Shown here piece by piece: positions 5,157 to 38,960 of a DNA stretch of 64,000 bases. The DNA comes from Bacteroidales bacterium. Its GTDB lineage: Bacteria; Bacteroidota; Bacteroidia; Bacteroidales; F082. The notes under the pieces were generated by a model. The model saw nothing but the letters and a program-made list of their open reading frames with translations. It did no database searches and was not told where the DNA came from. Made by a program: the position numbers and the translations under genes. Position 1 is the first letter of the stretch. Each line of letters starts with the position of its first letter. The stretch lies in assembly GCA_015709215.1 (NCBI GenBank), contig JACCQN010000009.1, positions 1-64,000 on the forward strand, read 5' to 3'.

Positions 5157-5843
5157 CTAAAGCAGTGTAAACCTAACCGGAATAGTAAAACGTACTCGTA
5201 CCGGAATATTGCGCTGCTTGCCAGGCTTCCAGGGTGGCATATTTTTCACAACGCGAATAGCTTCTTCATCGCAGCCTCCACCGATACCTCTAAGCACTTT
5301 CACTTGCGAAACAGAGCCATCGGGTTCTACTACAAAGCCAACATACACAGTTCCCTGGATTCCCATTTCGCGGGCCTCCTGTGGATAATGGATATTTTCA
5401 GCAAAATAAGCCCTACGTGCTGCTTCACCTCCCGGAAATTCAGGTTGTTCTTCAACAATCAGAAATATTTCCGGCTCTATAATAGCCTCTTCCTCTGGCG
5501 GCCGCTCAACAGGAATATACTCCGGTATCTCAGTTTTTTGATCAATTTCAGCCTGAATATGGATTTCTGTTTCAACCTCCTCTGTGTTATCAACAACAGT
5601 TAATAAGGTTATTTGCTGTCTTGGCTGCTTGGGAGGCGGAGGTGTAGTGGGTTGATGCGTCTGGATCATCTCCTCCTGAATGATATTTAGTTCGCCATAG
5701 TCAAAATCGAGTGTTGTAGTACGCAATGGTCGCTTGATCTGGAAGACTAAAAAAATACTTAATAAGGCAACCGCTAATCCGATTTCAAAAAACAGGCCCC
5801 TCTTATTCTCAAGATCAGCCTGTGGTGTTTTATAACTGATCAT
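5157..5843 (-). CDS. TonB-family energy transducer
   Basis: A 228-residue inner-membrane protein that would couple the ExbBD proton channel to outer-membrane transporters. It has a short cytoplasmic N-terminus, one membrane span at about residues 16-35, a proline- and acid-rich periplasmic stretch (about 55-130), and a C-terminal TonB domain marked by EFPGGEAA, YPQEAREMGIQGTVYVGF and PPWKPGKQRN. No exbB, exbD or receptor gene is adjacent. It lies 57 bp downstream (in transcription) of nothing obvious and 58 bp before the Ig-like lipoprotein gene on the same strand, so the two could be co-transcribed. Confidence 0.9.
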   Translation of the reverse strand: MISYKTPQADLENKRGLFFEIGLAVALLSIFLVFQIKRPLRTTTLDFDYGELNIIQEEMIQTHQPTTPPPPKQPRQQITLLTVVDNTEEVETEIHIQAEIDQKTEIPEYIPVERPPEEEAIIEPEIFLIVEEQPEFPGGEAARRAYFAENIHYPQEAREMGIQGTVYVGFVVEPDGSVSQVKVLRGIGGGCDEEAIRVVKNMPPWKPGKQRNIPVRVRFTIPVRFTLL

Positions 5844-38456: not shown

Positions 38457-38502
38457 TAAAAAAACCGGAAACCCATTCTTTTGATCGAATCGACTTCCGG
38501 TT
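38457..38502 (-). terminator. Intrinsic terminator of the structured RNA
   Basis: On the minus strand AACCGGAA and TTCCGGTT pair, enclosing a 24-base loop that itself can pair ATTC with GAAT, and are followed by seven T. This is a strong terminator and lies 25 bp past the dnaG stop, which is on the other strand. Confidence 0.85.
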
Positions 38503-38715
38503 CAGCCTTCATTAGCCATAGCCAATGAATACTGGCAAGTTAAGCTCACGGACTGTTCATTCAGGCTTTCGCCTCCTGTGTTGCCGTAATCGGATTTTTG
38601 TTTTCTGTTTGTTGCCGTAGCAACGCCCCTACTCACTTTCCGTTTTCGCGTTTTGACAAATGTGACTCACTTTTCAGTTTGTCTTGTCATCGCATCAGGC
38701 TTTTTTTGATGCTCC

Positions 38716-38811
38716 TCAACAACAAAACGTTCCTTTCGGTGTGTTTTGCCAATTGATGCAGAAACATATAGAAGAACGCTTTTGCAAGTGGTCTTCAAGC
38801 TTCTTCATCAT
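38716..38811 (-). CDS. Possible 31-residue peptide inside the structured RNA
   Basis: ATGATG at 38811, about 23 nt from the predicted 5' end, opens MMKKLEDHLQKRSSICFCIN and closes with a cysteine-rich tail (GTFCC) before TGA. It could be a dual-function RNA or leader peptide, or chance. The frame overlaps the first hairpin and nothing in it matches a family I know. Confidence 0.2.
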   Translation of the reverse strand: MMKKLEDHLQKRSSICFCINWQNTPKGTFCC

Positions 38812-38838
38812 TGCCTGGTTTATGCTCACTTGCTGAAA

Positions 38839-38869
38839 CAAAAATAAGCAATCAGAGGCCTTTTGTCAA
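38839..38869 (-). promoter_or_regulatory. Promoter of the structured RNA
   Basis: On the minus strand TTGAC (TTG at 38867-38869), then 20 bp, then TATTTTTG at 38839-38846. This is one of the best consensus promoters in the window and points only at the non-coding region. Confidence 0.75.
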
Positions 38870-38960
38870 GTCAAAATCAGGTTTTCTTATTCACCATCAA
38901 TTAACAAGACTTATTAACAATGGTTAATAACTCACGAATGACCTGTTAAATATACACTTT

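Follow-up and report, generated by a model that had tools for sequence, protein, structure and literature searches.

Only a small number of large RNAs are conserved in bacteria, and some of these have turned out to be catalysts, regulators or cage-forming molecules. ROOL and GOLLD are described as phage- and prophage-encoded, with tRNA islands often close by (PMC12286853). Closer to the organism studied here, Rfp11, Rfp13, Rfp15 and Rfp18 of Flavobacterium psychrophilum are conserved, structured and independent transcripts of Bacteroidota (PMC9723704), and 6S-Flavo (RF01685) and Bacteroidales-1 (which we take to be the name of a known RNA included in the model library) are stand-alone RNAs of the same phylum. 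In this study we analysed a 64,000-nt stretch of DNA from a Bacteroidales bacterium (the window), and found on its minus strand an RNA that shares these general properties with the RNAs of the phylum but has no match to 6S-Flavo or Bacteroidales-1, and that, in contrast to ROOL and GOLLD, lies among ordinary chromosomal genes (ARAGORN found no tRNA gene in the window). We conclude that it belongs to a family that Rfam 15 lacks and that is widespread in Bacteroidales. The parts of the unit are listed below.

38911..38930 (strand.): upstream palindrome TTATTAACcATTGTTAATAA, the genome it comes from (97% complete) has no other exact TTATNAACNATTGTTNATAA site
38897..38906 (-): second half-site of the array, TGTTNAT, four bases off the palindrome
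38886..38894 (-): third half-site of the array, GTGAATAAG; mainly GTTNATA- or GTGNATA-like in relatives
38864..38869 (-): -33 element TTGACA; TTG alone or less in many relatives
38839..38846 (-): -7 element TATTTTTG; compare the Bacteroidota sigma-A consensus TAnnTTTG (PMC9723704, PMC7366714)
38463..38835 (-): RNA gene, about 370 nt; ends inferred, the 5' end from the -7 element and the 3' end from the terminator
38828..38832 (-): 5' strand of P1, CAAGU; CAGGU in relatives
38813..38817 (-), pairing with 38696..38700 (-): helix CAGGC/GCCUG
38765..38779 (-): weak boxA-like stretch GCGUUCUUCUAUAUG; many relatives have GUUCUUU
38611..38624 (-): hairpin GUUGC-UACG-GCAAC; stem varies on both sides across relatives
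38562..38578 (-): hairpin with GGCGAAAGCC, conserved in close members of the genus, altered in G004
38536..38540 (-): 3' strand of P1, ACUUG; ACCUG in relatives, one pair switching between G-C and A-U on both sides
38503..38534 (-): conserved 3' hairpin with loop UAUG/UACG, the loop hairpin being placed at 38515-38523
38463..38502 (-): intrinsic terminator, stem AACCGGAAGUCGAUUC/GAAUGGGUUUCCGGUU and then a U-run

An earlier reading of the window, made without database searches (the sequence-only reading), had proposed a structured RNA here with a full promoter, a strong terminator, several hairpins and no fitting protein gene, and these claims held. The promoter (TTGACA plus TATTTTTG, minus strand) is conserved in relatives; the string alone is no evidence, since its 3 matches in the window are at chance level (2.17 expected), and it is the conservation that counts. 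The terminator stem was confirmed at 38463-38502, and several hairpins were found, among them one with C(UACG)G (38611-38624) and one with GGCGAAAGCC (within 38562-38578; missing from the aligned g4 and g13 sequences). As for coding potential, each forward frame of the window RNA contains 6-7 stops, the longest ATG-initiated ORF has 31 codons, no minus-strand ORF within the RNA exceeds 44 codons when GTG and TTG starts are allowed, and among 12 relatives the longest ORFs and their frames disagree; no ORF is conserved. Folding of the minus strand gives -121 kcal/mol (z = -7.16), a value that none of 100 shuffles reached; for the plus strand z is -3.00, again with none of 100 shuffles at that level. 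The coordinates were corrected: the RNA spans about 38463 to near 38835, and the array at 38886-38930, beyond the proposed range of 38457-38869, belongs to the unit. The abundance that had been claimed is only inferred, from the promoter and terminator and without transcript data, and the earlier reading had missed how widespread the family is, as well as the array upstream and the boxA-like motif.

The computational checks that the sequence-only reading had named as able to overturn it were carried out, and the proposal survived all of them. The proposed novelty was not refuted by comparison with Rfam 15 (4227 families), which gave no family at the gathering score anywhere in the window. A cmscan of the 621-base region with permissive filters returned chance-level matches only (best E 0.096, a microRNA family on the plus strand). 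No Rfam match fell on the RNA in 18 loci from the pattern scan described below (138,571 bases, three of the loci flavobacterial) or, in a permissive search, in 11 loci of which nine are members and two are flavobacterial. Specifically, cmscan gave no match on the RNA for the covariance models of OLE, ROOL and GOLLD or for 6S (RF01685 and RF00013, the latter of which we take to be 6S RNA), and listed none for Bacteroidales-1. RF01685 was unmatched in the own genome as well, as it was in the control genomes.

A referee might suspect a divergent housekeeping RNA (RNase P, tmRNA, SRP or 6S), given the similar size and the similar arrangement of promoter and terminator. Against this, the RNA has no Rfam match, and RNase P and tmRNA are encoded elsewhere in carriers. 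The type A RNase P model (RF00010) is unmatched in the region and has its single match in the own genome at G000:C103:9170-9566, and the tmRNA model (RF00023), also unmatched in the region, has its over-cut-off match at G000:C39:665-1064. Among seven carrier genomes, RNase P scored over the cut-off in 7/7 and tmRNA in 5/7, elsewhere in the genome where positions were given. RNase P and tmRNA are as good as refuted in the own genome, and the housekeeping explanation as a whole can be set aside with hardly any reservation.

When 61 relatives were searched at the DNA level, 13 genomes gave a match, the own genome among them. Near full-length matches (88-93% identity) were found in four genomes of the same genus (G001, G002, G005 and G006), and partial ones in G004, G009, G024 and G036; G028 was matched through its terminator, and its 5' end was recognised on reading. 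After reading, L007-L009 and L011 were retained as homologues, and L010, L012 and L013 were rejected as non-homologous (terminator-like or coding matches). A second DNA search added the g13 homologues. The RNA was not detected in G003, one of the seven genomes of the same genus; an assembly gap is possible there, since G003 also lacks a tadA match at E <= 1e-20. Within the same family, it was not detected in G031 (g13), and there was no strong hit in g3, g5-g8, g11 and g14; we conclude that it has been lost or has diverged in these genomes. In the same genus the RNA lies between dnaG and tadA, as in the window. Homologues occupy the tadA and/or dnaG place in g1, g2, g4, g9, g10, g12 and g16, in all of which tadA is directly upstream on the same strand (adjacency derived from tadA positions and 5' model matches), and g13 and g15 are exceptions with the RNA elsewhere. 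In G024 the RNA adjoins dnaG with tadA on a separate contig, and in G028 it lies at a contig start. In five loci of g2, g9, g12 and g16 (L055, L056, L203, L209 and L221) the middle of the RNA is long and purine-rich, with many small GCAA/GAGA-type hairpins, and carries GGAAGCGCAAGC and similar stretches, as though grown by repeats.

To follow the unit further, contigs of GTDB species were scanned for an exact pattern of palindrome, half-site and promoter (a palindrome near TTATNAACAATTGTTNATAA, a TGTTNAT half-site four bases on, and the promoter at constant distance). This gave 114 stretches, which their record titles assign to Bacteroidota (106), Chlorobiota (3) and other bacteria (5). Directly after the -7 element, 67/114 carry a 5' motif near CARGUGAGCGAUAAAAGG (<=4 substitutions), or 87/114 when the window-type form is included. 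The gap between array and promoter is 52-54 in all 87 loci with the 5' motif, the search having allowed 52-58; among the 27/114 without it, several of them flavobacterial, 18 also have a gap of 52-54. The 3' motif AAUAACNGUARCYUGRC (<=3 substitutions) followed by a terminator is present too in 60/114, and the length from -7 element to terminator in those 60 is 281-645 nt.

Two models were built. R2 represents the promoter and 5' end by sequence only, and R1 represents the 3' end only; for R1, MAFFT misplaced the terminator and RNAalifold retained 9 pairs, and the model was used unchanged. In alignment A1, 37 of the 60 pattern-scan rows were combined with 10 of the 12 rows of window-type and related sequences; A2 consisted of the window and 61 of the 114 loci, after near-duplicates had been thinned by visual inspection. 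R2 matched 34 of the 61 relatives at E <= 0.01 (27 of those below 1e-5), and over the order it matched 95/393 genomes at E <= 1e-6, representing 53/207 genera (about a quarter). For at least five of these 95 (G560, G572, G665, G677 and G733) the match ends at model position 92-102 and is mainly promoter. A search of the phylum matched 42/394 at E <= 0.01, many of them promoter-only. R1 provides the check from the other end: over 50 loci it gave a downstream same-strand match in 41/42 non-flavobacterial and 0/8 flavobacterial loci. Of 28 order-level loci (new R2 loci apart from L172 and L204), 11 duplicate pattern-scan DNA and 17 do not; R1 matches 16/17 of the latter, and the sole miss, L306, is cut off within its 3' region by the end of the contig. 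Close kinship with training sequences is possible for some of the 17. Eight loci of f31 (L173, L174, L176, L177, L178, L180, L181 and L184), which we take to be a flavobacterial family, have no R1 match at E <= 0.1 and were not counted as members.

Twelve genomes in the order-level R2 results have two matches, some close together, as at G783:C1:351800-352722 (0.8 kb), G674:C1:208495-209099 (0.5 kb) and G592:C28:14893-16542 (1.5 kb). Two copies of the unit, together or on separate contigs, are also seen in G043 and other f8 genomes. Three hits of the pattern scan (L058, L108 and L155, two of them labelled Chitinophaga pinensis) share a conserved ATTGTTNATAACCC stretch without the palindrome, which is possibly coding.

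The relatives also allowed covariation to be examined, and covarying pairs stand well above both shuffled and slid controls. Alignment A3 holds 26 of 32 motif-picked distant members, with L066, L100, L115, L132, L141 and L158 dropped as outliers or partial. Over its 118 predicted pairs, 96.8% of cells pair (89.6 shuffled), double changes occur in 53/118 pairs (27.2 shuffled), and the score is 0.276 as compared to 0.143, with 0/500 shuffles as high. Sliding the A3 structure by 1-3 columns leaves only 26-47% of cells paired; this comparison favours the predicted structures because they were derived from the same alignments. Alignment A4 (12 sequences from g1, g4 and g13, the clade of the window) has 53 pairs, with 96.1% of cells paired against 86.7 shuffled, double changes in 17/53 pairs (12.0 shuffled) and in 67 cells (25.0 shuffled), and a covariation score of 0.363 (0.187 shuffled); no shuffle of 500 was as high on any of these measures. 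A weaker measure, further pair types, was reached by 15/500 shuffles. An alignment of 23 sequences is no evidence for AACGTTCTTT, because its sequences were chosen for containing it.

A3 predicts 24 helices. In both A3 and A4, P1 pairs one end of the RNA with the other, through CAAGU/ACUUG in the window and through CAGGU/ACCUG elsewhere. Between P1 and P2 of A3, GAUAAA (columns 17-22) and AAUAACNGUA are invariant or nearly so. The best-conserved part of the RNA is a terminal core of P1, an A-rich internal loop, P2 and a UNCG-type hairpin, and the middle varies. The subgroup of the window does not have the AAUAACNGUA strand that marks this core; G004, of the same genus, retains AACAGUAAUCUGCC, which links the window form to the distant core forms.

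The neighbourhood of the distant members bears on whether the RNA works in cis. A cis-acting leader or attenuator of a downstream gene would find support in a UbiD-like gene on the same strand 52-250 nt past the terminator in 24/60 distant loci, but these loci are mutually related and do not represent 24 independent cases. Moreover, the next downstream gene in the window, dnaG, is convergent, and the next downstream ORF (>=90 codons) is on the opposite strand in 10/60 distant loci, so a fixed co-directional downstream gene, as a leader would need, was seen neither in the window nor across the 60 loci. Upstream neighbours of distant members are enolase (eno)- or L17 (rplQ)-like, and other neighbours are biotin-carboxylase-like or SRAP-like, with tadA on the other side in L137 (gene names at distant loci were assigned by reading N-termini). 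Because neighbours vary and dnaG is convergent, the gene is neither the leader nor the 3' UTR remnant of one mRNA, and we regard the cis reading as very improbable. The varying gene contexts make action in trans the probable mode, an inference from sequence alone. What the sequences do show is a unit that has its own promoter and terminator, that keeps its fold through compensatory changes, and whose ends are conserved while its gene neighbours shift; it has no conserved ORF. That this is a real, conserved RNA gene we consider very likely.

Upstream of the sigma-A promoter lies the conserved array of TGTTNATA half-sites, whose palindrome has a single exact occurrence in the own genome, at the RNA locus. 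A palindrome-like site with one mismatch at 5587-5606 lies inside the reading frame 5157-5843 (whose protein we take to be TonB-like at its C-terminus), and was taken as chance. The half-sites of the array could be read as DnaA boxes, with the RNA as a replication-linked transcript of an origin. The DnaA box consensus is TTATNCACA. In favour of this origin-linked reading, TGTTNATAA resembles a reversed DnaA box, a perfect TGTGGATAA is present in the array of 1/114 pattern loci (L069, the same DNA as L049), and the single exact palindrome in the own genome would fit. Against it, most half-sites have an A where the DnaA consensus has C, and GC skew shows no switch around the RNA or promoter in G004, G350, G378, G286 or the window. 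The sign change in G021 is weak (-0.009 to +0.016) next to a far-left stretch at +0.107 and is not origin-like; G017 has mixed signs. The skew data come from seven genomes (six with both sides, G024 with one) and comprise 38 stretches, each 20 kb long, and the sites in G350, G378 and G286 are promoter-model matches rather than confirmed RNAs. With no origin-like switch at the RNA or promoter across the seven genomes, oriC at the RNA was rejected, and the origin-linked reading as a whole is unlikely. Control of the promoter by DnaA remains conceivable, there being no binding data.

Many members carry a boxA-like motif: GUUCUUU is found in 38/60 members as compared to 1.56 expected (from shuffles that ignore sequence relatedness), and in the largest subgroup the motif reads ACGUUCUUUCAACGAUU. 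It is missing in 22/60 members and the window version is weak (GUUCUUCUAUAUG), so boxA was ruled out as a universal part and retained as a frequent one. A wider search of the 28 order-level loci (GUUCUUU, GUUCAUU/A, GCUCUUU or GUUCUUC within 500 nt) gave matches in 11, one of which (L312) lies only past the 3' end of the RNA. The own assembly has no 16S match, and rRNA leaders were taken from other genomes instead: those of the class (G008, G014, G255 and G350) carry GUUCAUARACAUAWUGAA, and that of G276, from another class, carries GUUCUUUGACA. Since the class leaders have GUUCAUA, the motif resembles the general boxA and not the class's own copy. We interpret it as a frequent aid to transcription, with NusB/S10 binding and Rho resistance inferred, and not as the function of the RNA.

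Taken together, the parts suggest the following working model. A dedicated regulator would bind the half-site array and activate the strong sigma-A promoter; RNA polymerase would then make an untranslated transcript, helped past Rho in many lineages by a boxA-like loading site for NusB/S10. P1 would close the molecule end to end and offer an A-rich internal loop (in most relatives GAGNGAUAAAA opposite AAUAACNGUA) for docking by a partner, either protein or RNA, with the lineage-variable middle serving as peripheral scaffold. By analogy with OLE, ROOL and GOLLD, the product may be an RNP or an RNA-only assembly that is dispensable in some lineages. A function as RNP or RNA scaffold rests on this analogy and has not been shown, and taken as a claim of its own we put it slightly below an even chance. 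For the explanation as a whole, a stand-alone structured RNA gene with a scaffold mechanism in trans, the balance tips modestly in favour.

A rival on function is a base-pairing sRNA, in which the conserved single-stranded stretches would pair with mRNAs and the remainder would be a stabilising scaffold. The gene does stand alone with its own promoter and terminator, and trans-encoded sRNAs are known in Bacteroidota (GibS, Rfp18; PMC9723704, PMC7366714). However, 281-645 nt and 24 predicted helices (A3) far exceed such sRNAs, and much of the conservation is in two ends that pair with each other. We consider this rival unlikely.

Some loci that we take to be flavobacterial (L088, L113, L117, L173-L178, L180, L181, L183 and L184 are those with the array) have the same array and -7 element in front of other transcripts. 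Several of these transcripts, about 400-500 nt long, carry GUUCUUUA and end in a AAAGCCAUAUCA...UGAUAUGGCUUU-type terminator, and four of the loci (L088, L113, L117 and L178) have an L19-Flavobacteria leader within about 1 kb. Their relation to the RNA described here is unproven. A bolder reading would be an ancient class-wide RNA regulon, in which one regulator, perhaps DnaA or a growth-state factor, acts on the shared array in Bacteroidales and Flavobacteriales and drives large boxA-equipped RNAs. If this were true, the conserved two-strand core would dock on the transcription or translation machinery and tie its capacity to growth or replication, and the flavobacterial transcripts would be fast-evolving members of the same family. 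We think this joint claim improbable.

Transcription, abundance, partner and phenotype are all without experimental data, and the structure is predicted, not solved. The family is undescribed in the literature we searched (broad result sets were covered only partly, and supplements were excluded); the novelty lies in an RNA family without a known relative, and new biochemistry is not claimed. Its interest is that a large structured RNA with a dedicated promoter element, recognised through promoter and 5' end in about a quarter of the order's sampled genomes, has no match in Rfam 15. For further work the family offers alignments of tens of diverse members as well as short forms of about 280 nt. 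Perlabentimonas gracilis M08_MB (L092), a named strain that has the promoter followed by no less than 154 nt of the RNA's 5' part (the sequence stretch stops there), is a possible entry point for partner and knock-out studies.

Compared with known systems, the RNA recalls rRNA leaders and other boxA-bearing untranslated transcripts through a boxA-like GUUCUUU in 38/60 members (weak in the window), but the leaders of the class have GUUCAUA, and the RNA has no rRNA downstream and stops at its own terminator. With OLE, ROOL and GOLLD it has in common that it is large, intricately paired and noncoding, and with GOLLD in particular that a conserved 3' part is joined to a less conserved part (PMC12286853). 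While a member of none of these by the tests run, in the way it would work it resembles, by analogy, the large ornate RNAs most.
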